Shown here piece after piece: positions 14,591 to 52,883 of a DNA stretch of 64,000 bases. Both the position numbers and the translations under genes were made by a program. This DNA comes from Streptomyces sp. SAI-127. Lineage in GTDB: Bacteria > Actinomycetota > Actinomycetes > Streptomycetales > Streptomycetaceae. The notes below the pieces were generated by a model. The model did no database searches and had not been told where the DNA came from. It was given only the letters and a program-made list of their open reading frames with translations. Position 1 is the first letter of the stretch. Every line of letters starts with the position of its first letter. The stretch is from positions 7,336,501-7,400,500 of the forward strand of contig NZ_JARXYJ010000001.1 of assembly GCF_029894425.1 (NCBI RefSeq). The letters are read 5' to 3'.

Positions 14591-14593
14591 CGG

Positions 14594-22788: not shown

Positions 22789-23457
22789 CTACTTCACATC
22801 CTTGGCCAGGACGGCGACGGCAACCCTGCCCACCACCCTCGTCAGTACGTAGTTGGTCGAGCTGCTGAAAGCGACACCCACGCCTGCCGGAATCGCCTTG
22901 GCCATCGCCTTCTGGGTGAAGGTGATGGACACCCGCTTGAACAGCTGCTTGATCGTGACCAGGGCGGGCCCTGTGAGGTACTGGTAGACCAGCTTCTGGG
23001 CGATCTTCTGTACCGCCGCCTTGCCGCCCTTCGACGCCATCTGTTCCGCCGAACCCGCCAAGGCGATGGTGAAGGCGAGGTGCTTCTTGTCCTCGGTGCT
23101 CAGCTCGGTCTCGAACACCTCGACCAGGCACATGCACATGTCGACCTGGAGCTTGAGCGTCACGGCGACGTCGGTGGCACCACCGCCCAGGATCGCGACC
23201 GCGGTCCCGACTCCCGGAATCACGCTCGGGGCGGCGGTGGCAGCCCCAGCGGCTGCCGACATCTTGGAGTACCGGCCTATGATCTTGGCCGCGATCCGGC
23301 GCTTGTCCTCCAGGCTCTCGGGCTTCCGCTCGTTCTTGTCCTCGAAGGCCCCGCGGTAACCGTCCACGACCTTTTCGGCTGCTGCCGGTGTCATGACGAT
23401 CGTCTCGACGGCTTTCTGGAGCCGAGAGCCTGCGGGCTCGTCCACCGCGTTGTCCAT
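22789..23457 (-). CDS. EcsC-like/DUF697-like helical protein
   Basis: This 222-residue protein starts at an ATG preceded by GGAGGGG. It is helical with small-residue-rich hydrophobic segments: AAAGAATAAPSVIPGVGTAVA, FTIALAGSAEQMASKGG, and near the C-terminus AIPAGVGVAFSSSTNYVLTRVVGRVA. The IPGVG and PAGVGVAFSSSTNYVLTR patterns resemble EcsC and DUF697 proteins, which associate with membranes. The assignment is tentative and the function unknown. It lies between the small regulator cluster and the restriction genes and is transcribed in the same direction as hsdR, but a terminator-like hairpin at 23534-23563 comes before it. Confidence 0.55.
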   Translation of the reverse strand: MDNAVDEPAGSRLQKAVETIVMTPAAAEKVVDGYRGAFEDKNERKPESLEDKRRIAAKIIGRYSKMSAAAGAATAAPSVIPGVGTAVAILGGGATDVAVTLKLQVDMCMCLVEVFETELSTEDKKHLAFTIALAGSAEQMASKGGKAAVQKIAQKLVYQYLTGPALVTIKQLFKRVSITFTQKAMAKAIPAGVGVAFSSSTNYVLTRVVGRVAVAVLAKDVK

Positions 23458-23533: not shown

Positions 23534-23563
23534 ACGCCCCGGCCGGTCACCCAGCCGGGGCGT
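23534..23563 (-). terminator. hairpin terminator of the hsdMSR operon
   Basis: ACGCCCCGGC (23534-23543) pairs perfectly with GCCGGGGCGT (23554-23563) around a 10-base loop, five bases beyond the hsdR stop. Confidence 0.75.
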
Positions 23564-23568
23564 ACACG

Positions 23569-26500
23569 TCAGATGTCGTCGTCCAACCCCTCCTCGCGGC
23601 GGATCATCCGCCAGGCCGCCTTGCGGGCGCTGCGGTCCAGGCTGGACTTGAAGCCCTTGTCCGGGCCGAAGTACTGGCGGCCCATGCCCGCGATGGTGTC
23701 GATGTGGTCGGCCATCTTGTCGGCGAAGACGTTGTCGAAGACGAGGCCGAAGTTCTCCTCGTCGTTGACGACGGCCGCCGCCCGCACCTTCGGATCGGCC
23801 TTGGCCTCCTCGAATGGCCGGATGACGTCCTGCTCGGTGAACTCGGTGCCGAAACGCTCGTTGAACTTCTCGATCAACTGCGAGAGCAGCGACTTCTCCG
23901 CCTCCTTCGCCCCGCCCGAGCCGTCGCCGAAGCCCTTCAGCGTCGTCGACCCGTCCGCGGTGAGGGAGACGTCGTACTCGCCGGTCTTCTCCACCCGCAT
24001 GTGGCTGAGGTCGACCTCCCCTATGTCGACGCCGCCGTCGGCGCTGCGCGGCAGCCGGTTGAGGAGGTAGCGGCCGTAGAGGTGCAGCCGTTCCAGCTCG
24101 GGGTCCTGGTAGGGGACGATCTGCGCGAGGAAGCCGTACTTCCTGACGAAGTCGTTGAGGTCGGCGCGGAACGTCTCCGCCACCTCCTGGTCGTCCTCGT
24201 CCTCGCTCTCCAGCAGGTGCGTGAAGCGGGCGACGGCCGGCGAGAGCAGCCGGTACAACTCCGCGTGCAGCTTCTCCCACTTGGACTGCGAGCCGGCCGC
24301 CTTCTCCTTGGCGGCGAAGAACGCGGCGGCGAACTCGTCCATCTCCTGCCCGGACAGGATCGCCGCCCGCATGACCTTGCTCTGCGCGGTGTAGAGCAGG
24401 TTGGGGTCGGAGGGGAGGGCGTCCGCCTCCTCGAAGTACGGGCGGAAGGCGGCCTGGATGTCCTCGGCGTCGTTGACGAAGTCGAGCACGGCCAGGTCTG
24501 CCTGGGTCTTGCGCTCGGCGGTCCGGTTCAGCCGGGACAGCGTCTGCACGGCGGAGATGCCGGTCAGCGACTTGTTCACGTACATCGTCGTCAGCAGCGG
24601 CTGGTCGAAGCCGGTCTGGTACTTCTCCGCGACGACCAGAATCCGGTACTCGGGCCGGCCCGCACCGCCGGCCCGCGCGGCCTTGTCGTCGGCACGCGTG
24701 TAGCCGAACGCCTTCGGCAGCGCGCTCTCCGACAGACCGCCGTTCTCCTTCGACTCGGTGGTCTCCTCGCCGTCGACCGTGAGCGAACCGGAGAAGGCGA
24801 CCAGGACGCCCAGGTCGGGGTACTTGGTGTCGTAGTCCCGGTCCTTGAGGTAGCTCTTGATCGCGCGGGCCATCTGGACGGCGGACTGCCGCGAGGCGGT
24901 CACCACCATGGACTTGGCCCGCCCGCCGAGACGGCCCCTGCTGTGCGCCACGAAGTGCTCAACGATCACTTGGGCGTGCTGGGCGACCGTCGAGTCGTGG
25001 GTGAGCGCGTACCGGGCGAGCAGCGAGTTGGCCTTGGAGGGGTCGACCTCCCGCTCGTCGGGGTTCTGGTTCACCAGCTTCCAGTACGTGTTGTACGTGA
25101 CGTAGTTGCGCAGCGGGTCGAGGATGAACCCCTCCTCGATCGCCTGCCGCATCGAGTACGTGTGGAAGGGCCGGTAGGTGGCCGTGCCGTTGACGTCCTG
25201 GAGCGTGCCGAAGAGTTCGAGGGTCTTGGCCTTCGGCGTGGCGGTGAAGGCGAAGTAGGAGAGGTTCGCGGCGCGGGAGCGGTCCTCGGCCCGCTTCCGG
25301 AGCTTCTTCCGCAGCTCGGCGGCCGGAACCTCGACCTCGGTCGCGCCGCCCTCGTCCGAGTCGGAGTCCAGGCCCAGTTCACGTAGCACGGCCCGTACGT
25401 CGGTCGCGGCATCGCCGGCCTGCGAGGAGTGCGCCTCGTCCACGATGATCGCGAAGTGAGTGCCCCGGAGCTCGGTCGGGTTGCGCAGCAGGTAGTCCAG
25501 CAGCGCGGGGAACGAGTGCAGCGTGACGGTGACGATCTTCCCGGTGTCCCGGGAGAGCGCCTTCGCGAGCTGCTCGCCCTTCGCCCCGTGCTTCTCGTCG
25601 ATCTTCACGACGAGACCGGCGGTCTGCTCGAAACTGCCTATCGTTTCCCGGAGTTGGGCGTCCAGGTTACGACGGTCGGTGATGACGATGACCTTGTCGA
25701 AGACCGGAACGCCCGGCTTGAGGCCCTTGGACGACACGGCCTCGGGGTCGAGTTCACGGGGGTCGGCGGCGGTGTGCAGGTCGCTGAGCCGGTGCGCGAG
25801 CCAGCCGATGGTGTTCGACTTGCCCGAGCCGGCCGACGCCATCACCAGGTAGTCGTGCCCGGCACCGTGCGACGCGGCGTGCGCGGTGAGCTTCTTGACT
25901 GCGTCCCATTGCTGGAACCGCGGGAACACCATCGTTTTCGTCGTGCCGCCGCCGGGCGTCTTGGTCTTGTGCAGGTGCACGAAGCGCTGGAGCAGGTCCA
26001 GCCAGTTGTCCGGCTGCCAGACCTGCTCCCAGAGGTAGGAGGTCGCGTACGTGCCGTAGGCGGTCGGAGCCGGGTTGCCCGCGCCGCCCGGCTGGCCGGG
26101 GCCGTTGGAGCCGGTGTTGAACGGGAGGAAGCGGGTGTTCTTGCCCTTGAGCTGGGTGGCGACGAAGACCAGGTCCGGGTCGACGGCGAAGTTTGCGACT
26201 ACCCGGCGCGTGAAGATCAGCTCGGTGGGGTCGCGGTCCGTGCGGTACTGCTCCTTGGCCTGCTCCACCCCCTGCTTGGTGAGCGGGTTCTTCAACTCGG
26301 CCGTGGCTACGGGGATTCCGTTGAGGAAGAGGGCGAGGTCGAGCCGGTTGCCCCAGTCTGCCTGCTTGGTCGCGTATTCGAGTTCGCGGACGACGGTGAG
26401 GCGGTTGGCCCGGTAGCCGTCCAGCACCGAGTCGTGGGCGACGAGGTTCGGCTTGAAGTACGCGAGGCGGAGCAGGACCCCCCGGTCCTTGACGCCGTTG

Positions 26501-26769
26501 CGGAGGACGTCGAGGAGTCCGTTGGTGGCGATGGCCTGGTCGAGACGACCGGCGAATCCGCGCTGCGCCTCGTTCGGGTCGCCGCCGTAGACGGTGAGCA
26601 GCTCGCTCCACTCGTCGGGCTGGGTCGCGCCGATGAAGGTGAACAACTCGTTGGTGTCCAGGCCGAGATCGGCCCGGTAGTCCTGCGGGCGCGCTTCGCG
26701 CCAGCCGCGCTCGACCATGGCGGCGACGATGGCTTCACCGAAGGCGGACTCCGTGTGGATGGGGCTCAT
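23569..26769 (-). CDS. hsdR: type I restriction enzyme R subunit (HsdR)
   Basis: This 1066-residue motor and nuclease subunit makes ATP-dependent double-strand breaks in DNA lacking the host methylation. The N-terminal nuclease domain shows LDLALFLNGIPVATAELKNPLTKQ (the D...ExK core) at residues ~140-165. The SF2 translocase has Walker A ASAGSGKSN (~310), motif II VDEAHSSQAG (DEAH), and motif III FAFTATPKAKT. Later motifs include EKYQTGFDQPLL and QTLSRLNR, and the C-terminal assembly region follows. The start is two bases after the hsdS stop. Full length and intact motifs suggest an active enzyme. It forms R2M2S with the two upstream genes. Confidence 0.95.
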   Translation of the reverse strand: MSPIHTESAFGEAIVAAMVERGWREARPQDYRADLGLDTNELFTFIGATQPDEWSELLTVYGGDPNEAQRGFAGRLDQAIATNGLLDVLRNGVKDRGVLLRLAYFKPNLVAHDSVLDGYRANRLTVVRELEYATKQADWGNRLDLALFLNGIPVATAELKNPLTKQGVEQAKEQYRTDRDPTELIFTRRVVANFAVDPDLVFVATQLKGKNTRFLPFNTGSNGPGQPGGAGNPAPTAYGTYATSYLWEQVWQPDNWLDLLQRFVHLHKTKTPGGGTTKTMVFPRFQQWDAVKKLTAHAASHGAGHDYLVMASAGSGKSNTIGWLAHRLSDLHTAADPRELDPEAVSSKGLKPGVPVFDKVIVITDRRNLDAQLRETIGSFEQTAGLVVKIDEKHGAKGEQLAKALSRDTGKIVTVTLHSFPALLDYLLRNPTELRGTHFAIIVDEAHSSQAGDAATDVRAVLRELGLDSDSDEGGATEVEVPAAELRKKLRKRAEDRSRAANLSYFAFTATPKAKTLELFGTLQDVNGTATYRPFHTYSMRQAIEEGFILDPLRNYVTYNTYWKLVNQNPDEREVDPSKANSLLARYALTHDSTVAQHAQVIVEHFVAHSRGRLGGRAKSMVVTASRQSAVQMARAIKSYLKDRDYDTKYPDLGVLVAFSGSLTVDGEETTESKENGGLSESALPKAFGYTRADDKAARAGGAGRPEYRILVVAEKYQTGFDQPLLTTMYVNKSLTGISAVQTLSRLNRTAERKTQADLAVLDFVNDAEDIQAAFRPYFEEADALPSDPNLLYTAQSKVMRAAILSGQEMDEFAAAFFAAKEKAAGSQSKWEKLHAELYRLLSPAVARFTHLLESEDEDDQEVAETFRADLNDFVRKYGFLAQIVPYQDPELERLHLYGRYLLNRLPRSADGGVDIGEVDLSHMRVEKTGEYDVSLTADGSTTLKGFGDGSGGAKEAEKSLLSQLIEKFNERFGTEFTEQDVIRPFEEAKADPKVRAAAVVNDEENFGLVFDNVFADKMADHIDTIAGMGRQYFGPDKGFKSSLDRSARKAAWRMIRREEGLDDDI

Positions 26770-26771
26770 GT

Positions 26772-27983
26772 TTAGGCGGTGACTCCGTCCGTTACGTTGC
26801 GCCCGCTGGCGGTGGATACGTCGAACTGGCCGGTTACAGCGGCGGTGATGAGGGCTTGGCGGCGTTCGGTAAGCAGTTGCTTAAGCCGCTGGATACGCTC
26901 ATGCGCCACGTGAAATTTGACCATTTCGGAATCCATAGCTTCAGCAACTGACTCCTGGAGAGACTGCGGAACCATCGCAACTTTTAGCCGATGGAGGTCA
27001 TTCCGATTAACCCCAGGGATTGCAGACTTGACCTGCTCCATCTCGTATGGGAGGGCGCGGAGAAGATGGTAACAGTACCGACGACTGTTTCCGTTGAAAT
27101 TCTTCACGTAAAGCGTCGTATTGTGCGGCCAGTAGTCGCTGTCTACCCAGTGAACGTTGCCTCGCGACCCGTACCTCCGGATTACGACTCCCGGGCCCTC
27201 GGCAATCGCTCGATTGTGCCAACCACTGAGGCCGGCTGTTGTGACAACCGGCACAGGACCGTCAATGCGCTGGTCGTCCGATAGGTCCACGCCGCGCTGC
27301 AGTTGCAGCACTCTGAGCAAGGGGATAATCTGGGCATCTGGATTCATGAAAGGCATCCAAGGAAGCCCTGTTCTCACTTTTGTGGTGCACAGAAGGGCGC
27401 CAGCAACCCCCATGGGGATAGAGGCATCCTCCCGCTCGGTAACCAGTTGACTCTGCCGATGAAGCTTTGCTGCTAGATGGTCGATGCGGGCAGTCTCGGC
27501 GTCAAGGAAGTCGGCGATGCGGCGCTGCTCATCCAGCGACGGAGAGGGGATCTCGAGCTCACCAATGAGCGCAGCGCTCAGATTCTGCAGCCCAGTTGTC
27601 GTGGAGCTCAACTTCCGAATCTGCTGCTTGGCGTACGTACTATTCATGAAGTACCACGCGAATCGCGAGTTGTGGGTTGGTGCGAGGCGGAGCCTCTGCA
27701 GGAAGTTCGAAAATGAAGCTCCTGCCGATTCGTCGCCAACGTATCCGGTCTTACCCAGGTGGGCATCGCTACCACTGGATCGCACAACCAGAAGGTCACC
27801 TTTGGTCAGGCGCGTTCGTGAAATCTCCCGTTCGGTCAATGAGCGATTTGCGGTGTCCTTAAGATCCAGGTTTCCGTCGAGGTCAATCTCCGTAGACCGT
27901 AGTACAGGAACGCCGCGACCATCTTCAGGGTCATCGCCCCAAGCTCCCGAATCTGTATCCGCAAGGCAGTGCTTGAGCTTCAT
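26772..27983 (-). CDS. hsdS: type I restriction specificity subunit (HsdS)
   Basis: This 403-residue specificity subunit has two target-recognition domains, each followed by a conserved helical spacer: LDEQRRIADFLDAETARIDHLAAKL near residue 150-175, and ERIQRLKQLLTERRQALITAAVTGQ near 360-385. The two domains read the two halves of a bipartite DNA site. The ATG at 27983 overlaps the hsdM stop (TGATG); a TTG one codon earlier is an alternative. The DNA is visibly richer in A/T than its neighbours, with rarer codons. This is common for hsdS genes, which exchange recognition domains by recombination. Confidence 0.92.
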   Translation of the reverse strand: MKLKHCLADTDSGAWGDDPEDGRGVPVLRSTEIDLDGNLDLKDTANRSLTEREISRTRLTKGDLLVVRSSGSDAHLGKTGYVGDESAGASFSNFLQRLRLAPTHNSRFAWYFMNSTYAKQQIRKLSSTTTGLQNLSAALIGELEIPSPSLDEQRRIADFLDAETARIDHLAAKLHRQSQLVTEREDASIPMGVAGALLCTTKVRTGLPWMPFMNPDAQIIPLLRVLQLQRGVDLSDDQRIDGPVPVVTTAGLSGWHNRAIAEGPGVVIRRYGSRGNVHWVDSDYWPHNTTLYVKNFNGNSRRYCYHLLRALPYEMEQVKSAIPGVNRNDLHRLKVAMVPQSLQESVAEAMDSEMVKFHVAHERIQRLKQLLTERRQALITAAVTGQFDVSTASGRNVTDGVTA

Positions 27984-29992
27984 CAATTCGTTACCTCACC
28001 CAACAGTGCCTGAATCTCCGCCTCCAGCGACTTCAACTCCGCATCGATTTCCGGCAATGGCCGCGGCGGCTTGTACACGTAGAAGTGCCGCGCGAACGGA
28101 ATCTCGTATCCGATCTTCGTCTTCGCGTGGTCGATCCAAGCGTCCGGAACGTGCGGCAGGACCTCCCGCTTGAGGTACTCCTCAGCGTCCTCGCCCAGCG
28201 GGACGTTCTCGTAGTCCCGCAGGTCCGTGTCCGGCTCCGCCGCGCCCTTGACCTTCTGAACCTCGCCCTCGGGATCCCGGACGCCGATCGTCTCCCGAAC
28301 CGCCTTCGCGAACGGCGCTCCCGAAGGCCACGTCAGCCCGGCCGCGACCACCGCGTCCTTGAGGGCGATGAACGCCTCGGACTTCGTCGTCCAGGACGAG
28401 CCGAGCAACGTACGCACCGCCGCGACGAACTCCTCGCTCCGCTCCAGCCTCGCCACCGGCTTGGCCTCCGCCAGCGCCGCCAACGTCTCCTCCGTCACCT
28501 CGAAGCGCAGCTTCAGCGGCCGCTCCACGGTGATGCGTTGGTAGCCGAAGTCCTCGTTGGCGAAGAGCTTGACCTTGCCGTGCAGCGGGTGCTCGGGGTC
28601 CTTGGCGACCTGGACGGCCTCCGCGTACAGCCGGGTAATGGCGCCGATGTGGTCGGGGCGGCCGTTCGTCCCGTCGCCCAGCTCCTTGCGCTTGTCGCCG
28701 AGCGACTTGCGCATCTTCTGCCACTGGTCGCGCGCGTCGACCAGGATGACCTTGCCCTTGTGGTCGGCGTCCTTGCGGTTGGTGAGGATCCAGAAGTACG
28801 TGGAGATGCCGGTGTTGTAGAAGAGCTGGTCCGGCAGGGCGACGATGGCCTCCAGCCAGTCGTTCTCCAGGATCCAACGTCGGATCTCCGACTCACCAGA
28901 CCCCGCCGCACCGCTGAACAGCGGGGAGCCATTGAAGACGATGGCGATGCGTGAGCCGCCCCCGCCGTTGACATCCACCGGCTTCATCTTCGAGATCATG
29001 TGCTGGAGGAAGAGCAGCGAGCCGTCGTTGATACGCGGCAGGCCCGCGCCGAAGCGGCCGGCGTCGCCGAGCGACTTGTGCTCGTACTCGACCTCCTCCT
29101 TGACCTTCTTCCACTCCACGCCGAACGGCGGGTTGGCGAGGATGTAGTCGAACTTCCGGCGGGCGTGGCCGTCGTCGGAGAAGGAGTTGCCGAAGCGGAT
29201 GTTCTCCGGGTCCTGACCCTTGATCATGAGGTCGGACCGGCAGATCGCCCAGGACTCGGGGTTGAGCTCCTGCCCGTACACCTCGACCGTCGCGTCCGGG
29301 TTGAGGGCCTTGATGCGGTCGTCGGCGGCGCTGAGCATGCCGCCCGTGCCGCAGGCCGGGTCCATGACCGTGCGGACGACACCCGGCACGGTGAGGGCGT
29401 CCGCGTCCGGTGCGACCAGCAGGTTGACCATCAGCTTGATGACCTCGCGCGGGGTGAAGTGCTCACCCGCGGTCTCGTTCGACTGCTCGGCGAAGCGGCG
29501 GATCAACTCCTCGAAGATGTAGCCCATGTTGTGGTTGGGCACGACATCGGGGTGCAGGTCGAGGTCGGTGAACCTGCCGATGACCTGGTAGAGCAGGTTC
29601 GCGCTGTCGAGCTTCCTGACCTGCTGGTTGAACTCGTACTTGTCGAGGACCTCGCGGGCGTTTTCGGAGAAGGCGCCGACGTAGATCTGCAGGTTCTTCG
29701 CCGCGTTCTGCGGGTCGGCCGCGATCTTCCGCAGCGTGAGATCGCTCTTGTTGTAGAAGGAGTGGCCCGAGGCCTTGCGCAGGAAGTGGTCGGTGTCGAT
29801 CTCCTGGCCCGCGAACTTGGCGACGGTCTCGACGACCTTCTCGCGCGTCGGCTCAAGGACGCACTCCAGGCGGCGCAGCACGGTGAACGGCAGGATGACC
29901 TTGCCGTAGTCGGACTGCTTGTAGTCGCCGCGCAGGAGATCGGCGACGGACCAGGCGTGGTTCGCCAGCTCCGTGTGCTTGCTGCTGTTCAA
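27983..29992 (-). CDS. hsdM: type I restriction-modification methyltransferase subunit (HsdM)
   Basis: This 669-residue N6-adenine methyltransferase has an N-terminal helical HsdM_N domain (LANHAWSVADLLRGDYKQSDYGKVILPFTVLRRLE, shown in part). The AdoMet site follows at residues ~205-225 (VMDPACGTGGML), and the catalytic motif NPPFGVEW is near residue 285. YGQELNPESWAICRSDLMIKG lies between them. The C-terminal ~100 residues are charged and helical and contact HsdS. The frame opens with TTG at 29992. It is the first gene of the MSR operon, 91 bases downstream of a separate methylase fusion. With HsdS it protects host DNA. Confidence 0.95.
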   Translation of the reverse strand: MNSSKHTELANHAWSVADLLRGDYKQSDYGKVILPFTVLRRLECVLEPTREKVVETVAKFAGQEIDTDHFLRKASGHSFYNKSDLTLRKIAADPQNAAKNLQIYVGAFSENAREVLDKYEFNQQVRKLDSANLLYQVIGRFTDLDLHPDVVPNHNMGYIFEELIRRFAEQSNETAGEHFTPREVIKLMVNLLVAPDADALTVPGVVRTVMDPACGTGGMLSAADDRIKALNPDATVEVYGQELNPESWAICRSDLMIKGQDPENIRFGNSFSDDGHARRKFDYILANPPFGVEWKKVKEEVEYEHKSLGDAGRFGAGLPRINDGSLLFLQHMISKMKPVDVNGGGGSRIAIVFNGSPLFSGAAGSGESEIRRWILENDWLEAIVALPDQLFYNTGISTYFWILTNRKDADHKGKVILVDARDQWQKMRKSLGDKRKELGDGTNGRPDHIGAITRLYAEAVQVAKDPEHPLHGKVKLFANEDFGYQRITVERPLKLRFEVTEETLAALAEAKPVARLERSEEFVAAVRTLLGSSWTTKSEAFIALKDAVVAAGLTWPSGAPFAKAVRETIGVRDPEGEVQKVKGAAEPDTDLRDYENVPLGEDAEEYLKREVLPHVPDAWIDHAKTKIGYEIPFARHFYVYKPPRPLPEIDAELKSLEAEIQALLGEVTN

Positions 29993-30083
29993 GAGGTCCC
30001 GGCTTCCTTCCGAAGAGCGCCGTCCGGGCGTAGGGACGGCAGGGATCCAGTGTGGTCGTGTGCGGTGGGACGCGTTGGGCGTT

Positions 30084-32333
30084 TCAGGCGGAATCGCTGT
30101 CCCGGGTGTCCGGCGGCAGGAGTACGCCTGCGGTCAGGCCGGTGGTGAGGGTGGACGCGGTGTCAGCGGCTAGGTCGGCGGTTCGGCGGACTGCCGCGCG
30201 CAGCTCGTACACGCGGCGGAACGCCTCCCCGTAGCGCCGCTGTTCCTCCAGCGGCAGCAGCGGTACGCGCAGGCGGCCCGGTGTGACGTGCACGAGGGTG
30301 GAGCCGGTGGACGCGGAGGCGATGTTGTCGTCGGCGCCGAGGAACCCGGCCAGGAACCACGGGTCGAGGCGGGCCGGGTCGGGGCGCAGGAGGTGGATGT
30401 GCTGACCGAGCAGCGCTCCGGCGTCCCGGTCGTCCGCGACCCGGGTCATCGCGGACTCGTTGCCGCTGCCCGCGAGGGCGCGTACCAGGACGTCCCCGGC
30501 GGCGACGGGCTGCGCAGCGTCGGCGTGGAGGTCCACGGCCCCGCCGGACGGGGGGTTGCCGGTGGAGACGTCCTGGGCGGTGAGGACCGGCCGGTCCACG
30601 GTGGGGGCGGCGGAGCCCTTTGAGCCGCGGGTGCCGGGCGGCGCCGCCCGCAGCACGGTCAGGGCCCCGCCGCGCGCCAGGTCGGAGACGGTCGCCGTAC
30701 GCCACTCGCGGGCCGATGCTCCGGACGGCTGCCAGCCGCCGGACGCGGAGGCGGATGCCAGGGCGGCGACCTGCTCGGCCAGTTGGTCGTGCAGGTCGTG
30801 GGCGCGCCGGGCCAGGGCTACCGGGTCGATGTCGGCCGCGGTCGCCCGGACATGGCGGGCCGGGGTGACGTCGACGACGTCGTCGAGGAGGTCGACGAGC
30901 GGCACCGCGCGGGCGACGCTGGGCTCGTCGGCGTAGGTGTCGGGGGCGGTGGTGAACGCGGTCCACTGGCCGAGGACCCGCTCCGTCAGCCCCTCCCAGT
31001 CGAAGGTGGCGGCGGAGACCGAAGAGGTGGTGGTGGAGGCGGCGGAAGCGGAAGGGCCGGACCGGCGGGAGCGCGAGCCGCCGCGGGATCCGGCACCCAC
31101 CGTGGCCGTACCGGTGGCGGACGGCGTACCCGCGGCGCCGTCCCGCTGCTCGCCCTCCCCGTCGACGAACAGCACCGCCGCACGGTCCGTGCCGCCCGGC
31201 TCGGGGCGCTGGAACACCCAGATCTGCAGGCCGATGTGGAGCGGATACGCGGCACGCGCCGGAAGGGAGACGACGGCGCGCAGGGCCCCGCCGCGGATGA
31301 GTTCCGCGCGGACGCGGCGGCCGGAGGAGCGGAAGGCGAGCGCGGGAGGCAGCAGCATGACGGCGTGGCCGCCCGGCTCCAGGTGCGCGAGGGCGTGCTG
31401 CACCCACGCCAGTTCGGACTCGAAGCGGGGCGGGACCCCGTACGCCCACCTCGGGTCGTAGGCCAGCTCGTCGTGACCCCAGTCGCGGTCGCCGAACGGC
31501 GGGTTGCACAGGACGGCGTCCACGGTGACGTCGGGGAAGGCGTCGGCGCGCAGGCTGTCGCCGACGCGGATCGCCGTCTCGGCCTCGGGTGCGGCGATCA
31601 GCAGCCGGACCGCGGTGCGTTGGCCCTGGACGGGGAGCGAGTCTTGTCCGAACAGCTCCCGCACGCCCTGCCGTGCGGCGGCGGCGAGGAGCGTACCGCT
31701 GCCACAGGCGGGGTCGAGGACGCGGGACACGTCGGCGGGCAGGAGACGTGCCATGAGCCGGGCCAGCCCCTCCGGGGTCTGGTAGACGCCGCTGGCGGCG
31801 CCCTCGTCCAGTTCGCGTTCGGCGAGGACGTCGAGGGCGGCCTGGGCCCCCGCCTCACGGACGCAGCCCAGCAGCGCGCGGACCGCGCCCGCGTCGTCCG
31901 GGCCGTAGTGGACCGGCTCGGCCTCGGGCACGGTGGCCGGGAGCTCGCCCGCGGCCTTCTCCGCTCGGGCGAGCAGCTGGTCGTCGGGCACGGCGGCGAG
32001 TTCGGCCAGCTCCTCCTGCGTACGGCGGGACGCGGCAGCCACCAGCGGGAAGAGTCGCGCGGCCACCCCCGAGCCGGGCCCCAGCAGCCGTAGTGCCGTC
32101 CGCAGCTCCTCGGTCGGCGAGGCGGCGGAGGTGTGACCGCGGCCACGCAGCCATGCCTGGACGGCCGACAGATCGTAGAGCGGGCTGGCCTCCGTGCCTG
32201 CGCTGGGCGCGGGGAAATCGTCGTGGCGGCGACGCCAGTTGCTGACGGTGGCGCGTGTGACCCCCGCGATGCGGGAGATCTCGGCGGCTGTCACGTGTGC
32301 GGAGGGCGCCGGTCGGGCTGGTGGCTGGGGCAT
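30084..32333 (-). CDS. HTH - N6-adenine methylase - specificity-like fusion protein
   Basis: This 749-residue protein combines three parts. Residues ~12-45 form a helix-turn-helix of MerR/Xre style (AAEISRIAGVTRATVSNWRRRHDDFP). Residues ~175-400 form a type I-like adenine methylase: YQTPEGLARLMARLL, AdoMet motif VLDPACGSGTLL, FGQD, catalytic NPPFGD. After a low-complexity Ser/Thr/Gly linker (~400-440), the C-terminus resembles an HsdS half: WRTATVSDLARGGALTVL, HLLRPDPARLDPWFLAGFLG, LPLLPLEEQRRYGEAFRRVYEL. Methylase and specificity are thus in one chain, as in some type IIG/type I-derived enzymes, but no nuclease domain is visible. It precedes hsdM on the same strand and is divergent from the Rad50-like ATPase gene. 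The role is open: orphan methylase, regulator or part of a larger defence unit. Confidence 0.85.
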   Translation of the reverse strand: MPQPPARPAPSAHVTAAEISRIAGVTRATVSNWRRRHDDFPAPSAGTEASPLYDLSAVQAWLRGRGHTSAASPTEELRTALRLLGPGSGVAARLFPLVAAASRRTQEELAELAAVPDDQLLARAEKAAGELPATVPEAEPVHYGPDDAGAVRALLGCVREAGAQAALDVLAERELDEGAASGVYQTPEGLARLMARLLPADVSRVLDPACGSGTLLAAAARQGVRELFGQDSLPVQGQRTAVRLLIAAPEAETAIRVGDSLRADAFPDVTVDAVLCNPPFGDRDWGHDELAYDPRWAYGVPPRFESELAWVQHALAHLEPGGHAVMLLPPALAFRSSGRRVRAELIRGGALRAVVSLPARAAYPLHIGLQIWVFQRPEPGGTDRAAVLFVDGEGEQRDGAAGTPSATGTATVGAGSRGGSRSRRSGPSASAASTTTSSVSAATFDWEGLTERVLGQWTAFTTAPDTYADEPSVARAVPLVDLLDDVVDVTPARHVRATAADIDPVALARRAHDLHDQLAEQVAALASASASGGWQPSGASAREWRTATVSDLARGGALTVLRAAPPGTRGSKGSAAPTVDRPVLTAQDVSTGNPPSGGAVDLHADAAQPVAAGDVLVRALAGSGNESAMTRVADDRDAGALLGQHIHLLRPDPARLDPWFLAGFLGADDNIASASTGSTLVHVTPGRLRVPLLPLEEQRRYGEAFRRVYELRAAVRRTADLAADTASTLTTGLTAGVLLPPDTRDSDSA

Positions 32334-32395
32334 GGCGTGGAGTTCCGCACCTCTCGGGCCAGTCGGACAGGGACGGTTAACACGTTACAACAGCC

Positions 32396-32444
32396 GTCAA
32401 GTTCGTCAAGCTGTTTGACAGTGCTTTCACGGCTATGCTTATCT
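32396..32444 (+). promoter_or_regulatory. promoter with overlapping GTCAA half-sites for the ATPase gene
   Basis: TTGACA at 32415-32420 and TTATCT at 32439-32444 are 18 bases apart and fit a housekeeping promoter pointing toward 32635. The half-site GTCAA appears at 32396 and 32405 and inverted (TTGAC) at 32415, so a regulator site overlaps the -35 box. The whole divergent gap spans 32334-32634 and holds nothing else evident. The HTH of the divergent methylase is a candidate binder (inference). Confidence 0.5.
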
Positions 32445-32634
32445 GGTCACGCTTCCGGATGGAAGCATGGCCGCGACTCCGCAACCTCAACGTGAAGCGT
32501 CCTGGCGCCGTACCGCGCCACGCATCCGATCTCTCCCGGTCCCTTCTCGTCGCAACGCCATACCTCGGGGCCGTCCACTTCGCGTCCATTCCGCACCGCA
32601 GTCGCCACCCACCGCACACACGGGAGGAACCCGC

Positions 32635-35100
32635 ATGACCGTGACGGAACAGCCCCGGCAGAACGCACACCACCCCACCGACCCCGCCCGTCCGGCCCCG
32701 TCCGACCAGTCCGTGCCCGTGGCTGGTCTGGTGGAGGCCCGCCTGGCGGAGGAGGCGCTCACCGAGCCCGTGAAGGTGCTCCTGAAGGAGGCCATGGGCG
32801 ACGGCGAGCCCCGGGGGACCTCCCCTGCCGGCCGGATCTACCTCGAGTCCGTCGCCGTCGCCCGGTTCCGTGGCATCGGACCGCGCGCCTGGCTCAAGCT
32901 CAGCCCCAGACCCGGCGTGAACCTGGTCGTGGGGCGCAACGGCTCCGGCAAGTCCAGCATCGCTGAGGGCATCGAGACAGCCTTCACCGGTGTGAACATG
33001 CGCTGGCAGGGGCAGCACGCGATGCGCAGCAGCAACTGGCGCAACCTTCACGACACCGACGGCAGGCCGGAGATCGAGGTCAAGCTCGCCATCGAGGGCG
33101 ACACCGGCCGCAGCACCCTTACCCGCACCTGGGAGGGCGACGACTTCGACGTCTCCCGGGCCGAACTCAGGCGACCCGGGCACGGCCGCGCCCCCCTCGA
33201 CGAGGCGGACTGGAAGCAGGCCCTGCGGGACTTCCGGCCCTTCCTGTCCTACGTCGACCTCGACCGCATGATCAGTGGCAAGCCCTCCGAGATGTACGAC
33301 GCCATCGCCACCATCCTCGGCCTGGGGCAGCTCAATGCCGCCGACGGCCGGCTCCGCCAGGAGGCCAAGGCGCTCGAAGACGCGGAGAAGGTGGCGAAGG
33401 CGGAGCTGCCGGACCTCAAGGAGGCGCTGTACGAGTTGGAGGATGACGACCGCGCGGTCCAGGCACTCGTCGCCGTCGACACGGGGGGAACCCCCGACTT
33501 CGCGACCGTCGAAGCCCTCATCGCCGGTCTGCCCACCGACGCGGACGATGGCCTGCTCGCCCGGCTGCGTGCCGAGGCCGACGTGCAGGGACCCGAGATG
33601 GCGCAGGTCCATGCGGCCCTGGACCGCCTGCGCAATGCCCTCGCCGATGCCGAGGACCTGCGCGGCACCGGCACCGAGGACGCCCTGCGGCGTGCGGAAC
33701 TCCTCGAACGGGCTGTGGCGCACCACGACCGTCACCCCGACGCGGCCGCCTGCCCCGTGTGCGGGACCGACGGGATGCTGGACCCGGCATGGACCGCGGA
33801 CGCCATCGCGCAGATCGCCGCACTGCGGCAGGAGGCGGAGGCAGCAGCGGGCGCGCGGAGCGAACTCCGGTCGGCCGCGCGGGCCGTGCAGGACCTCGTC
33901 CACACGCCCCGACAGATCCCCGCCGCCCTGGCCGACCCGTGGCGCGCCTGGACCGCCTGCCGGACGATCAGTGATCCCGGCGAGCTCGCCCAGCGCGCCC
34001 ACGAGGCGGCCGCCACCCTGGCCGATGCCTGCGCCGCGGTCAAGGAGAACGCCGTCAGGGAACTGGAGAAGCGGGACGAACGCTGGCGCGGGCTCGTCAC
34101 CCGCCTGGCGGGCTGGGCGGAGAGGGCTCGTGCCGTGGAGGCGAACAAGCCCCGGCTGCGGGACATCAGGAAGGCGAGCACCTGGATCAAGGCGCTGGCC
34201 GCCGAGTTGCGGGAACAGCGGATGGAAGGCTTCGCCGACCAGTCGCAGCGCATCTGGGAGCGGCTCCGCCAGGAGAGCAACATCGACCTCAAGGCCGTGA
34301 GCCTGAAGGGCAGCGAGAAGGCCACTGTCCGCAAGCTCGTCATGGATGTCACCGTCGACGGCCAGGAGGCCTCGGCTCTCAGCGTCATGAGCCAGGGCGA
34401 GCAGCACTCCCTCGCGCTGTCTCTGTTCCTGCCCCGGGCCGCCACCGCCGACAGCCCGTTCGGCTTCATCGTCATCGATGACCCCGTGCAGTCCATGGAC
34501 CCCGCCAAGGTCAACGGACTCGCCCAGGTCCTGCACGAGCTCGGTGAGCACCGGCAGGTCGTCGTGTTCACCCACGACACCCGGCTCCAGCGGGCGTTCA
34601 CCAGCCAGGGTCTGCCCGTGACGGTGTTCGAGGTCGAGCGGGGCAAGTCGTCCAAGGTGAAGGTCAAGCCGGTGACAGACCCGGTACGGCAGGCACTCGA
34701 CGACGCGCGGGCCCTCGCCAGTTCCGGTGACCTGCCGTCGGCGGCACGGACCCACGTGCTGCCCAGCCTGTGCCGTATCGCCCTGGAGAACGCCTTCCTC
34801 GAAGCCGCCTGGATCCGGCATCACCGCTCCGGCGCGCCCGAGGACGAGCTGCAGGCCGCCGTCGGCAGCGCCGACAAGCTCATGAAGGTCGCGGCACTGG
34901 CCCTGTTCGGCGACGCCGGCCGGACCGGCGACGTCTACCGGGAACTGCGCACCCTTTGCGGACCGCGTGCTGTGGACCTCCTCAAGGAGTGCCAGAACGG
35001 CGCCCACGCCACGGGAGCGCAGATCACCGACCCCCACCGATTCGTGGACGACATCGAGATCATGGCGCAGAAGGTGCGCAAGCCGGGGGTGACCGCGTGA
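32635..35100 (+). CDS. Rad50/SMC-like ATPase with single CxxC hook
   Basis: This 821-residue ABC-class ATPase starts at the ATG with GGAGGAA upstream. Walker A is GRNGSGKSS (residues ~100-108), preceded by VARFRGIG. Helical arms follow on both sides of a CPVCG motif at residues ~373-377, which resembles the zinc hook of Rad50. The ABC signature is MSQGEQHSLALS (~584), Walker B FIVIDDPVQSMD (~610), and the switch His is in VVVFTHD (~643). About 135 residues after the head are helical and contain IALENAFLEAAWIRHH and KECQNGAHA. The stop overlaps the next start (TGATG). Such ATPases with small partners next to restriction genes belong to phage-defence-type systems. It could also be a DNA repair factor. 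Confidence 0.85.
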   Translation: MTVTEQPRQNAHHPTDPARPAPSDQSVPVAGLVEARLAEEALTEPVKVLLKEAMGDGEPRGTSPAGRIYLESVAVARFRGIGPRAWLKLSPRPGVNLVVGRNGSGKSSIAEGIETAFTGVNMRWQGQHAMRSSNWRNLHDTDGRPEIEVKLAIEGDTGRSTLTRTWEGDDFDVSRAELRRPGHGRAPLDEADWKQALRDFRPFLSYVDLDRMISGKPSEMYDAIATILGLGQLNAADGRLRQEAKALEDAEKVAKAELPDLKEALYELEDDDRAVQALVAVDTGGTPDFATVEALIAGLPTDADDGLLARLRAEADVQGPEMAQVHAALDRLRNALADAEDLRGTGTEDALRRAELLERAVAHHDRHPDAAACPVCGTDGMLDPAWTADAIAQIAALRQEAEAAAGARSELRSAARAVQDLVHTPRQIPAALADPWRAWTACRTISDPGELAQRAHEAAATLADACAAVKENAVRELEKRDERWRGLVTRLAGWAERARAVEANKPRLRDIRKASTWIKALAAELREQRMEGFADQSQRIWERLRQESNIDLKAVSLKGSEKATVRKLVMDVTVDGQEASALSVMSQGEQHSLALSLFLPRAATADSPFGFIVIDDPVQSMDPAKVNGLAQVLHELGEHRQVVVFTHDTRLQRAFTSQGLPVTVFEVERGKSSKVKVKPVTDPVRQALDDARALASSGDLPSAARTHVLPSLCRIALENAFLEAAWIRHHRSGAPEDELQAAVGSADKLMKVAALALFGDAGRTGDVYRELRTLCGPRAVDLLKECQNGAHATGAQITDPHRFVDDIEIMAQKVRKPGVTA

Positions 35101-35468
35101 TGAGCACTCCCACCACCTCGGTCGAGGAGCTCCTGCTGACGGCCGATCAGCTGCTTGCCGCCCGTACGGGCGCCACGGCCGCCGGCCGGCACCGCGGAGC
35201 CTCCCTCGCTCTGCGGACCGCCCTGGAGCTCTCCGTCGACCGCGTGCTCGACGCCGCGGTGCCAGGGCTCGCCGACACCACGATGCGGGCCAAGCTGCTG
35301 TGCCTCCACTGCTACACCGCGGCGGAGACCGCTCGCCGCACCAACGCCGTCTGGTCGCACCTCTGCCTGGGATGCCACTACCACCAGTACGAGATCGGCC
35401 CTACCCACGACCAGGTTCGCGCCTGGCGGACGGAGGTCGGTGAGCTGGTCGGGACGTTGACCATCTGA
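35100..35468 (+). CDS. small Cys/His-rich partner of the Rad50-like ATPase
   Basis: This 122-residue protein is translationally coupled to the ATPase (TGATG overlap). Its first half is helical (VEELLLTADQLLAARTGA, GASLALRTALELSVDRVLDAAVPGL), reminiscent of HEPN-type or other four-helix folds. The second half carries LLCLHCY, then HLCLGCHYHQYE. These give two CxxC pairs plus His residues, enough for a zinc site. The final TI-stop is normal, so the gene looks complete. I do not recognise a named family. Coupling implies equimolar production and a stable complex with the ATPase. Confidence 0.7.
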   Translation: MSTPTTSVEELLLTADQLLAARTGATAAGRHRGASLALRTALELSVDRVLDAAVPGLADTTMRAKLLCLHCYTAAETARRTNAVWSHLCLGCHYHQYEIGPTHDQVRAWRTEVGELVGTLTI

Positions 35469-35562: not shown

Positions 35563-35814
35563 ATGTACATGGGCACCACCACGCGCGAAGAGATCATCGC
35601 CTTCGAGCAGAAGGCGGTGGATCGTGCCTACGACTGCTATGCCGCGCGGCTGGCCGAAATGACCGGGGGCTCGGTCGCGTGCTCTGACCGGGAAGGTTCA
35701 CCGGGGCGCAGGTCGGGACGAGTGGATGGGACGCGATCTGGTCGGGGGCATGCATCAGCCACTGTGGAAACAGTTGGACACGTCCTGGACTCTCCACGAC
35801 GATTCGAGCTGTGA
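35563..35814 (+). pseudogene. truncated N-terminal gene fragment (possibly HelD-type helicase)
   Basis: A good ribosome binding site (GGGGAGGGG) precedes the ATG, and the first ~35 residues (REEIIAFEQKAVDRAYDCYAARLAEMTGG) look like a genuine protein start. They resemble the N-terminal coiled segment of HelD-type superfamily 1 ATPases, where EQ..VD..Y..L recurs. After that the frame turns into Arg/Gly/Ser-rich sequence without structure and stops at 35814. Most likely a larger gene was cut off by a deletion or rearrangement. The HelD link is tentative. The stop overlaps the GTG of the GNAT gene. Confidence 0.45.
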
Positions 35815-36359
35815 CAGACAAAGTCGAGCGCCGGACCCCGGCACCCACGAGCCCGAAGTCCGTGCGATTTGTTGAGTTGTCGAGCACGACCATGAGGGCC
35901 TTGCTGAAGGACGACCTGGCTCGCGCGAGTGCCGAAGCAGGTGTCGCTCTCACCGAGTACTTCGTCACCGACACGGCAAAGTGGGTGTGGCAGTATCGGG
36001 TCAATCAGCTGACCTCGGACCCGGGTTACACGGGGTGGCTCACTGAGATTGTGGTGGCCGAGCCGGAAGGTGCCGTCGTGGGGTATGCCGGGTTCCATGG
36101 GCCGCCGGATGAGGCGGGGATGGTGGAGCTCGGTTACTCGGTGGTCCCCGTCTACCGTCGTCAGGGCTACGCCAGGGCGATGCTGACCGCGTTGGTGCAT
36201 CGGGCCGTTGCCGAAGCCCGAGTCGGGACCGTGCGGGTGACGATCAGTCCTGACAACGCCGCATCCCTGGCCACGATTTCGGGGTTTGGCTTTGTGGAGG
36301 TCGGAGAGCAATGGGACGAGGAAGACGGCCTCGAAGTCATATTTGAAGTTCCTGTCTGA
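35811..36359 (+). CDS. GNAT family N-acetyltransferase
   Basis: This 182-residue protein has a GNAT fold. GWLTEIVVAEPEGAVVGYAGFHGPPDEAGMVELGYSVVP forms the central strands (residues ~75-115). YRRQGYARAMLTALVHRAV is the acetyl-CoA pyrophosphate loop (Q/RxxGxG/A type) with its helix, and VRVTISPDNAASLATISGFGFVEVG gives the C-terminal strand and alpha4. The fold and order match RimJ-like small-molecule or protein acetyltransferases. The start is GTG at 35811, overlapping the upstream fragment by four bases. The substrate is unknown. The next gene, an IS630 transposase on the other strand, ends one base after this stop. Confidence 0.85.
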   Translation: MTDKVERRTPAPTSPKSVRFVELSSTTMRALLKDDLARASAEAGVALTEYFVTDTAKWVWQYRVNQLTSDPGYTGWLTEIVVAEPEGAVVGYAGFHGPPDEAGMVELGYSVVPVYRRQGYARAMLTALVHRAVAEARVGTVRVTISPDNAASLATISGFGFVEVGEQWDEEDGLEVIFEVPV

Positions 36360-37538
36360 TCAAGCTGCTGCTGGAAGAGGTCGGCCTCCCCAGCGGATGC
36401 CTCTCTCGCTTCGGATGCGGGCGCGTTCCTTGCGCTGGGCGGCGAGCACGTCGGGGTGGCGGGCGTTGGCGTTGCGCCAGCGCAGGTAGGCGTGCAGGGC
36501 GCGGGTCTGCACGGTGTGGTTGTGGTGGTTCGAGTTGGCGATGGTGAACTGCCTCAGCGGTCCAAAGTGTGCCTCGATCGGGTTTGTCCACGAGGCGTAG
36601 GTCGGGGTGAAGCACAACTCGACCTTGTGCTTCTTCGCCCAGCGCCGGATGTCGGCGCCCTTGTGGGCGGACAGGTTGTCCATGATCACGTAGATCGGGG
36701 CGCCGTCGGGCCGTGCGGCGCGGATCGATTTCAGCGCGGCGAGAGTGTTCGCGGCGCCCTTCTTGCGGCGGTTGACGCCCCACAAGCGGTCGTCGCCGAC
36801 CGAGTAGCAGCCGTGGAAGTACCGGACTCCGTGGGTGCGATGGTAGGTGGCGGGCAACCGGTCGGGACGCCGTTGCTCGGCCCAGCCAGAGCCCGCAATG
36901 GGGCGGATGCCGAGCGGGCCGAACTCGTCGAAGGCAAAGACGCGGTCCGGGAAGCGGTCCAGGACGTGCTCGATGCGGTCGAGTTTGGTGTCGCGCTCGG
37001 GGTCTGGTGATTCCTTCCAGGTCTTGGTGCGCTGGAAGGTGATGCCGCGGCGGGCGAGCAGGCAGCGTAATGCTTCGCGGCCGATGCGGATGATCCGGCC
37101 GTGGATTTTACGCAGGTAGGCGGCGAGTTTGCGGATCGACCAGCGGGTGAAGGGCTGGCCGAGCTTGGCGGGTCGGGTGGTGGCCGTTTGGATGACGAAG
37201 TCCTCGTCGTCAGGGCTGAGTTGGCGGGGACGGCCTCCCGCCCATTGAGGGTCCAGGCAGGCCAGGCCGATCTCGTTGAACCGGTGGATCACGTCCCGGA
37301 CGGTGTCCTCGTCGGCCTGCACCAGTTGCGCGATCACCGGCACGCGGTTCCCGCCGGCCGAGGCCAGCAGCATCATCGCGCGCCGGTATCGCACCGAACT
37401 CGTGCTGCCACGACGCACGATCTGCTGCAGCCGCTGACCTTCCTGGTCGGTCAGTCTGCGCACACGGACAGGCTCAGCCACCGCGTCTCCAGCGGTCGGA
37501 TCGGACGTCACCGCACATCCAACCGCCACGACCACCAA
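36360..37538 (-). mobile_element. IS630-family transposase
   Basis: The 392-residue product has an N-terminal HTH region (RVPVIAQLVQADEDTVRDVIHRFNEIGLACLDPQWAGGRPRQLS) and a winged helix (GQPFTRWSIRKLAAYLRK). Its DDE catalytic domain shows FAFDEFGPLG (first D), YVIMDNLSAHKGADIRRW (second D), and TPTYASWTNPIEAHFGPLRQFT (E), the IS630/Tc1-mariner signature. The frame is complete, so the element may still be active. I could not identify matching terminal inverted repeats or the TA duplication by eye. The exact start is uncertain; the first ~25 residues may not be translated. Confidence 0.92.
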
Positions 37539-40642: not shown

Positions 40643-40938
40643 CGTGGTCCCCCCTTGGCAGTTGATGCGGTCGTGGCACGTGGGAACGACCATAGGGCTT
40701 CCCGCTTACAGCCACGGAAATGCTTCAGTTCTCGTCCAACACGCGCACCACAGCGCGTAGGCGCCATGCTGACCGGAAGACCAGTACGAGGTGCTCTGGC
40801 TGCTCATCGAGGGCATCGCCCCGACGACATCTCACTACGGCGCGTGGCCGTCGTACGGCCGGAGCCGTCCGCACGCTTGAGACCTTGGGAGCGATTGAGT
40901 TCGGGGCGCGCTGGCCTGGCGGATCGGCTGTTGGGTGA

Positions 40939-51324: not shown

Positions 51325-51738
51325 CCCGACGTCGCTGCTAGCGCTCCGGCGCCAAATCCCTTATTAACAGGCCTTGTTGTGAGCCGTGTGCCCTTCGGGC
51401 AGCCGCCGCGCCGACCATGAGCTTTCGGCCGTGACGTCCCCGACACACGACGGCTCCACCCCCGCCCACCGCCCCGAGCGGTCGGCTCCTCCCCGGTCCT
51501 GAGACTCCGTCAGGCATCCCGCGCCCTCGCCGCGCTCACCCCGATGAGCCCCCCGCCCGGCGACGCCGACGCCCTACGCCACGTACCGCTTCCAAGTGGC
51601 CCCCACACCTGCCCCGCCTCCCCGGCACCGGCATGCCCCTGAACAGGTGTGCCTTCCCAGCGTTCCCACTCATCCCGAGACACCAAACAGACACGCGAAC
51701 CAGACACGCCAGACACGCCAAGAAGGGCGCTGATTCCC
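51325..51738. other. leader region of the arabinose importer operon
   Basis: The 414-base gap contains no gene. TGCTAGCGC at 51336-51344 is, on the minus strand, GCGCTAGCA and matches the GCGCTAACA core of the two operators upstream. It may be a weaker operator for the same regulator. AACAGGCCTTGTT near 51366 is a near-palindrome of unknown meaning. Confidence 0.45.
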
Positions 51739-52881: not shown

Positions 52882-52883
52882 GC

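Follow-up and report, generated by a model that had tools for sequence, protein, structure and literature searches.

PrrC is the long-standing model of a suicide RNase that is guarded by a restriction enzyme. The coupling of HEPN proteins to restriction-modification (R-M) systems has precedent in the available sections of PMC3710099, and the available text of PMC2610378 gives the residues R320/E324/H356 for PrrC and R692/E696/H737 for RloC, a protein of 658-897 aa that is reported there as rarely linked to R-M genes (8/73). Here, we analysed a stretch of 64,000 nucleotides from Streptomyces sp. SAI-127 (the window), in which a type I R-M cassette lies beside divergently oriented genes for a Rad50-like ATPase and a small predicted HEPN protein. 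We consider it somewhat better than an even bet (probability roughly 0.55) that this pair is a second-line effector resembling PrrC and RloC but divided between two proteins: the ATPase would be the sensor of restriction or DNA ends and the HEPN protein the RNase that it unleashes.

Gene content and layout of the locus

Table 1. Features of the locus, with positions given in the coordinates of the window.
Feature	Positions	Strand	Description
hsdR	23569-26769	-	1066 aa; HSDR_N, SWI2_SNF2 and T1R_D3-like, all above Pfam cut-offs
hsdS	26772-27986	-	404 aa; Methylase_S; specificity subunit
hsdM	27983-29992	-	669 aa; HsdM_N and N6_Mtase; type I methylase
Mfus	30084-32333	-	749 aa; HTH - N6-adenine methylase - TRD-like fusion
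Divergent intergenic control region	32334-32634		301 bp, between Mfus and ATPase
Palindrome GCTTCC-N4-GGAAGC	32451-32466		candidate operator accompanying Mfus
Rad50/SMC-like ABC ATPase	32635-35100	+	821 aa; CPVCG hook, helical C-terminal domain
Small predicted HEPN protein	35100-35468	+	122 aa; translationally coupled to ATPase
UvrD-like helicase remnant	35563-35697	+	first 45 codons
GmrSD-family (type IV) gene	38069-40693	-	GmrSD_N and GmrSD_C; same defence island

The gene order and strands given in the initial annotation, from the type I genes and the methylase fusion (Mfus) to the ATPase and its small partner, were recovered with every gene in its place (Table 1). The ATPase ORF is open from 32467; a start at this position was rejected, as 32467-32634 holds frame-breaking indels between relatives, and translation probably begins at ATG 32635, behind GGAGG. 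The divergent gap therefore measures 301 bp, in agreement with the approximately 300 bp proposed before this refinement. The ATPase relatives listed are mostly 805-838 aa long. Chance can be dismissed as an explanation of the layout, since from about 28.0 to 35.68 kb the window is about 95% identical at the DNA level to contigs of three Streptomyces relatives, and the small protein has 207 homologues. The complete divergent gene set was found again in nine loci (L002-L007, L079, L083 and L085).

HsdR, HsdM and HsdS are encoded together, as expected for a type I R-M system, and hsdM matches PADLOC MTase_I PDLC03029 (917 bits). While hsdR matches at 91-93% in L002-L007, hsdS reaches 27-30% to the S genes of the same loci, with almost no DNA alignment over its length; hsdS is the gene swapped among these close relatives. 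On the other side of the locus, a UvrD-like helicase gene (~1130 aa in L002-L007, where it lies directly 3' of the small gene) follows the small gene in most close relatives. In the window only a remnant is left (tblastn, 87% over 45 aa), and synteny with the relatives breaks at 35678. The GmrSD gene of the island, which is found at 92-94% in L005 and L006, lies outside the transcription unit of the pair.

The stop codon of the ATPase gene overlaps the start of the small gene, and the small gene starts at an offset of -3 or 0 from this stop in 32/32 loci checked; in L086, the 819-aa ATPase ORF is intact and likewise coupled. The two genes also adjoin each other in 13/13 loci from outside the order to which the window belongs, one of which is a contig-end fragment. 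The coupling of the two genes that was noted in the initial annotation is thus real and conserved: the ATPase-HEPN pair is the invariant unit of the locus. No description of it was found in the open-licence literature searched, nor does the available text of PMC11090510, PMC12839542, PMC10853773 and PMC10586767 contain an account of it, and the module is apparently without a name in the literature.

Linkage of the pair to three restriction classes

The two genome samples, of 61 and 197 genomes, yielded 12 + 27 = 39 distinct loci (L080 and L081 being the contigs of L005 and L007), and the Streptomyces label of the sampled genomes follows from named relatives. Six loci with an ATPase below the threshold (L049, L084, L094, L103, L104 and L105) were dropped, leaving 33 loci, among which the pair is broken in L048 and the ATPase shortened in L082. 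The dropped loci are remnants or chance matches, and L084 holds a short ATPase fragment.

A restriction locus was present within ~10 kb of the ATPase in 29/33 loci of the Streptomyces genus (14 type I, 10 McrBC and 5 GmrSD), as assigned with bit-score thresholds chosen by us. These left L082, which has a GmrSD match at 29%, without a partner; in L086, an N6_Mtase match about 13 kb off fell past the stretch examined. For comparison, 384 N6_Mtase matches in 197 genomes, or 1.9 per genome, correspond to about a 0.5% chance per 20 kb. The 14 type I partners fall into two distant families (A and B), and the family of the window is missing beside the pair in 26/33 loci. On a quick ATPase tree (SH-aLRT only, long branches outside the genus, L048 and L086 left out), the three restriction classes require 2 changes, which is the minimum, and splitting type I into families A and B costs 3 more. 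The suspected link of the pair to restriction is thus strong within the genus, with clades that track the restriction class. Outside the genus, the pair persists and the restriction link is weak: 12/13 loci were without a recognised restriction gene, with Pfam scans covering 8 large neighbours from 5/13 loci (14 new matches, 13 of them fetched and G290 left out).

Could the pair be an independent module, of an anti-phage or toxin-antitoxin-like kind, which ends up beside restriction genes simply by landing in defence islands? The loci lacking a recognised restriction gene, four of the 33 in the genus and nearly all outside it, would fit this explanation, as would the existence of Mfus-hsdMSR cassettes without the pair and of another GmrSD gene in the same island. 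We nevertheless regard it as unlikely, given that the ATPase clades sort by restriction class with no more changes than the minimum and that the pair forms co-directional units with McrC (about 160 bp ahead of the ATPase in L039 and L087), McrB (40 bp past the small gene in L092) and GmrSD (directly upstream in L038, L088, L089 and L097). The divergent layout is, moreover, the same across the distinct family-A loci, whose ATPases share 63-96% identity.

The ATPase and its predicted HEPN partner

The ATPase is a Rad50-like ABC ATPase with a CXXC zinc hook, as in RloC, and this hook is kept in 42/43 sequences, with one gap. Its Walker B is DD, and AAA_13 matches the head alone; in the window's own genome, no AAA_13 match above the cut-off was found. 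For the C-terminus, a Pfam search gave no RloC- or PrrC-like domain, and RloC and PrrC structures were absent among the fold matches listed, which barely cover this domain. Three of its residues are nevertheless conserved across the phylum sample, namely R714 (43/43), E718 (41/43) and H791 (42/43, with one gap), the latter being 73 residues past E718.

For the small protein, the predicted structure (pLDDT 90.4) and a fold-match list dominated at its top by HEPN structures point to the all-helical HEPN fold. In place of the Rx4-6H ribonuclease motif, for which the alignment showed no conserved Arg 5-7 residues ahead of H93/H95, it keeps R39-x3-E43 together with H93, and these candidate active-site residues are conserved in 42/42 (R39), 42/42 (E or D43) and 40/42 (H93) sequences. 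An origin of the small protein by duplication of the ATPase C-terminus was rejected, as the hhalign probability was 0.1 both ways and did not exceed that of a coiled-coil control.

The Rad50/SMC head and hook, the UvrD-like helicase as a frequent partner and the departure from the Rx4-6H motif could also be read differently: the ATPase might be a Rad50/SbcC-like DNA-processing factor that, jointly with the helicase, clears restricted DNA or translocates it. The small protein would then be a non-catalytic HEPN adaptor, and RNA would not be cut. We consider this improbable, as both putative catalytic triplets are kept across the phylum sample and the occurrence is patchy, unlike that of housekeeping repair genes. 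Indeed, the small gene was found in 28/197 genomes (with at most 22 candidates scored per genome) and in 11/61 genomes. An ordinary SbcC/RecN was rejected on the same patchiness and because most of the weak ATPase matches belong to distinct ORFs of greater length (about 670-1300 aa), and the small HEPN gene as a partner also sets the ATPase apart from housekeeping SbcC/Rad50.

The HTH-methylase fusion as a separable module

Mfus carries an N6_Mtase domain (124 bits, Pfam) with the methylase motifs DPACGSG and NPPF, and matches PADLOC PDLC03037 over nearly its full length (1486 bits). Its C-terminus shows a weak match to S subunits, and its N-terminal HTH matches lie below the Pfam cut-offs, yet this segment is strongly conserved. 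Relatives of Mfus accompany both the type I and the McrBC versions of the pair, and one of them, Mfus3, lies within 9/10 McrBC stretches, the tenth genome having a match just past the stretch. In these relatives the methylase site is often degraded with the HTH intact; the methylase motifs were lost or altered in the family-B and McrBC-linked relatives examined (4/7 family-B stretches stop short of the expected position of the fusion gene). At the five GmrSD-linked loci, there was no match to the methylase references used. The ATPase and small genes were absent from seven loci with Mfus relatives that had been chosen irrespective of the pair; five of these relatives match at 42-62% and the other two more weakly.

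The palindrome of the divergent region is exact in 9/11 distinct family-A loci, among which its arms are constant and its spacer is variable, and it has 3 sites in the genome compared to 1 for a control pattern. The Mfus HTH probably binds this putative operator and controls the divergent region. For the family-B Mfus relative, TGATAACC-NN-GGTTATCA is a candidate for the counterpart DNA site.

As Mfus relatives occur without the pair and the pair occurs with other restriction classes, the locus consists of separable modules that have been joined repeatedly, and not of one obligate system. The initial annotation had envisaged that all these genes act together, perhaps with nuclease and ATPase both reading methylation as the self mark, and had named independent occurrence of pair and fusion as evidence against it; such independence is seen at least in part at the seven loci above. 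Although the whole set does recur in nine other loci (at about 95% DNA identity in the three compared), with a shared divergent region and with fusion relatives in McrBC-linked loci too, an obligate composite is very improbable and largely refuted by this separability. A general self-mark role of methylation looks unlikely as well, because of the lost or altered motifs of the fusion relatives and the GmrSD loci without a methylase match.

A proposed second-line effector

In the split-effector reading that we prefer, Mfus-hsdM-hsdS-hsdR would be a first module, a type I cassette that marks and cuts DNA, and the Rad50-like ATPase with the small HEPN protein would form a second one, a two-gene effector next to which most close relatives encode the UvrD-like helicase. 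The ATPase would keep the HEPN protein inactive until switched by restriction-made DNA ends, or by a restriction complex that fails or is occupied during infection; the freed HEPN protein would then cut RNA, perhaps tRNA, and growth would stop. PrrC and RloC would be one-polypeptide counterparts of this action. We infer, as parts of this proposal, the RNase activity, the logic of inhibition and activation, a contact with restriction proteins and a role in phage defence.

Since sister pairs adjoin three different restriction classes, the data suggest that the pair is an exchangeable second weapon acting alongside restriction. It is conceivable, if short of even odds, that the pair is a portable restriction-guard module with dedicated type I, McrBC and GmrSD lineages, which would sense restriction or its failure and add RNA cleavage. 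We hold, jointly with this idea and just as tentatively, that the HTH-methylase without a methylase site may serve in several versions as a DNA-reading regulator of the locus. If true, this two-gene version with lineages for three restriction classes would make the guarding of restriction a general, modular strategy, and one could then test directly which signal type I, McrBC and GmrSD enzymes share, be it DNA ends or failed restriction.

Comparison with described systems

The fusion, S, M and ATPase proteins give PADLOC matches to mad1, mad2, mad5, mad3 and mad8 of MADS (26-98 bits), but these are far below the NCBIfam cut-offs (32.9 versus 720 for the fusion and MAD2; 32.1 versus 400 for hsdS and MAD5), and a MAD1-MAD8 gene set above curated cut-offs is not present at the locus. 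With Lamassu and ABC-three-component systems, as presented in the available text of PMC10586767, the locus shares a Rad50-like ATPase with a CPxCG hook and a small partner, and in PADLOC the ATPase matches LmuB best (74 bits, residues 149-712). However, PADLOC gave no LmuA or LmuC match for the proteins scanned (part of the neighbours), the small partner is a predicted HEPN protein, and the ATPase has an extra C-terminal domain and a DD Walker B, compared to the E-to-Q change reported for LmuB. CoCoNuTs and other McrBC-HEPN systems tie McrBC to HEPN and type I R-M, with one branch tied to predicted methyltransferases, but place HEPN on CnuE or other proteins; the available text of PMC11090510, which supports these statements and announces a separate paper on R-M- and methylase-linked branches, does not describe a Rad50-like ATPase paired with a small HEPN protein.

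RloC is a Rad50-like ABC ATPase with a zinc hook whose C-terminal part is a HEPN anticodon nuclease with an R-E-H triad; it excises the wobble nucleotide from tRNA. As far as the available text of PMC2610378 describes RloC, the ATPase of the window resembles it in the ABC head with a CXXC hook, in a length that falls within the RloC size range, in the R-x3-E...H pattern, here conserved in a C-terminal helical domain, and in being linked to R-M, which RloC is on occasion (8/73). Unlike in RloC, the HEPN protein has a gene of its own, coupled to the ATPase gene in every locus checked, no RloC/PrrC domain is recognised in the ATPase C-terminus, the Glu-to-His distance is 73 residues instead of 41, and restriction linkage is the rule in the genus, across three classes. 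The arrangement of hsdMSR beside an ABC-ATPase/HEPN second-line effector is that of PrrC with the type Ic system EcoprrI, according to the available sections of PMC3710099. PrrC, however, joins a hookless ABC ATPase and an anticodon nuclease in one protein, whereas the locus described here encodes two proteins, the ATPase with a zinc hook, in a divergent operon with an additional HTH-methylase and with relatives beside McrBC and GmrSD.

The ATPase and the small gene as a unit

The gene calls in the window, which rest on ORFs together with Pfam and PADLOC matches, bear out the order proposed in the initial annotation: hsdR-hsdS-hsdM and an HTH/N6-adenine methylase/TRD-like fusion (Mfus) lie on the minus strand, and the plus strand encodes a Rad50/SMC-like ATPase followed by a 122-aa protein. 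The host genome measures 10.7 Mb, and the window's closest named relatives belong to Streptomyces. Translation of the ATPase most likely starts at ATG 32635, because GGAGG precedes this ATG, the relatives listed are mostly 805-838 aa long, and the open stretch upstream has frame-breaking indels among relatives.

The ATPase and the small gene constitute the unit. Measured from the ATPase stop, the start of the small gene lies at offset -3 or 0 in all 32 loci checked, and the two genes adjoin in 13/13 loci retrieved from beyond the window's order (L133 being a contig-end fragment). Within the genus, a single-sequence query found the small protein in 11 of 61 genomes; it occurred in 28/197 genomes of the order, all hits in one of 6 genera, and in 18/296 of the phylum (12/198 genera).

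Features of the window and of homologous loci (L-numbers)
Feature	Coordinates	Strand	Basis or remark
EcsC-like proteins near loci	22789-23457; L008:8110-9123		
hsdR	23569-26769	-	Pfam/PADLOC
hsdS	26772-27986	-	Pfam/PADLOC
hsdM	27983-29992	-	Pfam/PADLOC
Mfus	30084-32333	-	Pfam/PADLOC
Rad50/SMC-like ATPase	probable start 32635	+	Pfam/PADLOC
Small gene	overlaps ATPase stop	+	ORF
UvrD-like helicase remnant	35563-35697		first 45 codons
GNAT-like acetyltransferase	35811-36359		after helicase remnant
IS630-family transposase	36360-37538		after GNAT-like gene
GmrSD-family type IV gene	38069-40693	-	same island as type I genes; common to L005 and L006
963-aa ABC_tran-domain protein	51633-54524		outside island; PADLOC mad3/mad8-like, 118 and 72 bits
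McrBC-linked Mfus relatives	L046:14139-15842; L047:3625-5298; L087:1015-2712; L090; L092; L098		
Family-B HTH pseudo-methylases	L008:5707-8049; L009:6064-8214; L043 ~13039-15220		5' of hsdM; motifs I and IV lost
DUF6119 gene	L044:10548-12233; L093; L096; L100		after small HEPN gene
DUF6119 gene	L167:7292-8986; L169:12082-13530		divergent side (upstream) of pair-less Mfus cassettes
2102-aa protein, another actinobacterial family	L129:10577-16885		adjoins pair; Swt1-like HEPN, DUF4011, helicase, MTES_1575 REase

Exchange of hsdS among close relatives

Close relatives (L002-L007) were located with the ATPase as query and their proteins compared by tblastn. Identity to the window was 91-93% for hsdR, 95-96% for hsdM, 96-98% for the small protein, 80-97% for Mfus and 95-96% for the ATPase (but 87% in L007, and lower for short N-terminal pieces), and merely 27-30% for hsdS. 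In DNA alignments with L005, L003 and L006, identity was ~95% from ~28.0 kb to 35678 and 91-92% across hsdR, and hsdS hardly aligned; hsdS has been swapped in place between neighbours at 91-95% DNA identity, a clean specificity exchange. The alignment ends at 35678, where L002-L007 carry a ~1130-aa UvrD-helicase-domain protein (Pfam run on the L003 copy) whose gene is cut in the window.

Restriction partners and ATPase lineages

The genus and order samples comprised 39 distinct loci, or 33 after removal of six without a detectable ATPase. A restriction locus lay within ~10 kb of the ATPase in 29 of the 33, with partner families assigned by Pfam on example proteins: type I family A (n=7: window, L042, L079, L080, L081, L083, L085), type I family B (n=7: L043, L044, L093, L096, L100, L101, L102), McrBC (n=10: L039, L040, L046, L047, L087, L090, L091, L092, L095, L098) and GmrSD (n=5: L038, L048, L088, L089, L097). 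Besides occurring as an island gene in the window, GmrSD directly partners an ATPase-HEPN clade of its own. Family B is distant, its HsdR and HsdM being 23-25% and 28-29% identical to the window's. Within ~10 kb, L045, L082, L086 and L099 (4/33) lacked a partner, and reference matching found no restriction neighbour for 12/13 pairs outside the genus. Genes downstream of the pair vary (UvrD-like helicase, DUF6119 or a HEC-07-like gene), and DUF6119 genes recur either there or on the divergent side of pair-less Mfus cassettes, as though occupying an accessory slot.

In a tree built from 49 ATPases, the three labels (type I, McrBC, GmrSD) can be mapped with 2 changes, the fewest that three states allow; ATPase lineages therefore specialise by restriction class. 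Splitting type I into families A and B costs 3 more changes, and within type I the cassette is exchanged. The partnerless L045 falls inside the McrBC clade, and L099, likewise partnerless, next to GmrSD. The chance-linkage background was computed for N6_Mtase, whose 384 matches across the 197 genomes (between 0 and 8 in each) place one in roughly 0.5% of random 20-kb stretches. Passive clustering of the pair beside restriction genes, a less likely reading, does not predict such lineage specialisation, though tests for clustering are inflated by near-copies and common descent.

Mfus and its relatives

Seven Mfus-relative loci were fetched regardless of pair presence. Five of them, at 42-62%, come from other genomes (L164, L165, L166, L167, L169); L168, in the window's own genome, and L170 are weaker. 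Neither ATPase nor small gene was found by tblastn in any of the seven, and the Mfus-hsdMSR cassette is therefore separable from the pair. hsdM and hsdR follow the relative in L164, L165, L167 and L169; the L166 contig ends. These seven loci count against the single joint unit initially proposed, but fusion relatives are also frequent near the pair. There, they adjoin family A cassettes, lie beside family B wherever the stretch is long enough (L008, L009, L043, L044, L093) and occur in 9/10 McrBC stretches, the tenth genome having a match just outside; the five GmrSD loci gave no match to the methylase references used.

Family-A-type proteins keep both methylase motifs (4/4 examined). Family B relatives retain the HTH and have lost DPACGSG and NPPY (3 sequences examined). 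McrBC-linked relatives, with the HTH intact, motif I as DPACGIG and NPPY replaced by DPPA, DPPV, EPPA or EPPT (6 sequences examined), are probably inactive methylases. Retention of the HTH while the methylase degrades suggests a regulatory or DNA-reading role.

Of 11 distinct family-A loci, 9 carry the palindrome GCTTCC-N4-GGAAGC (32451-32466 in the window) without a mismatch; L083 departs from it at one position, L042 lacks it, and the spacer differs between loci. The palindrome stays beside Mfus in L085, where ~1 kb separates Mfus from the ATPase, and also lies 5' of the pair-less Mfus in L166; it was not found before those of L164, L165, L167, L168, L169 and L170. Genome-wide there are three such sites, versus one for a control pattern. 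Family-B loci L008, L009 and L043 instead carry TGATAACC-NN-GGTTATCA in front of the HTH pseudo-methylase, and the Mfus HTH may bind both candidate sites.

A proposed split effector beside restriction systems

A split effector of the RloC/PrrC kind, docked to restriction systems, is the reading that the evidence supports best. By structural modelling the small protein likely has a HEPN fold, its putative RNase action is plausible, and within the genus a working link to restriction is more probable than not. Counting against this reading, the small protein lacks the canonical HEPN RNase motif and belongs to no recognised RNase family, and its fold match has a weak Foldseek E-value and a Z unremarkable for a helical fold. 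The pairs without restriction neighbours (4/33, and by the references used 12/13 outside the genus) and the eroded copy in the window also count against it. HEPN RNases linked to R-M have been proposed as a second line of defence (PMC3710099); the present pair would be a further variant, made of two genes and with an unusually wide range of restriction partners.
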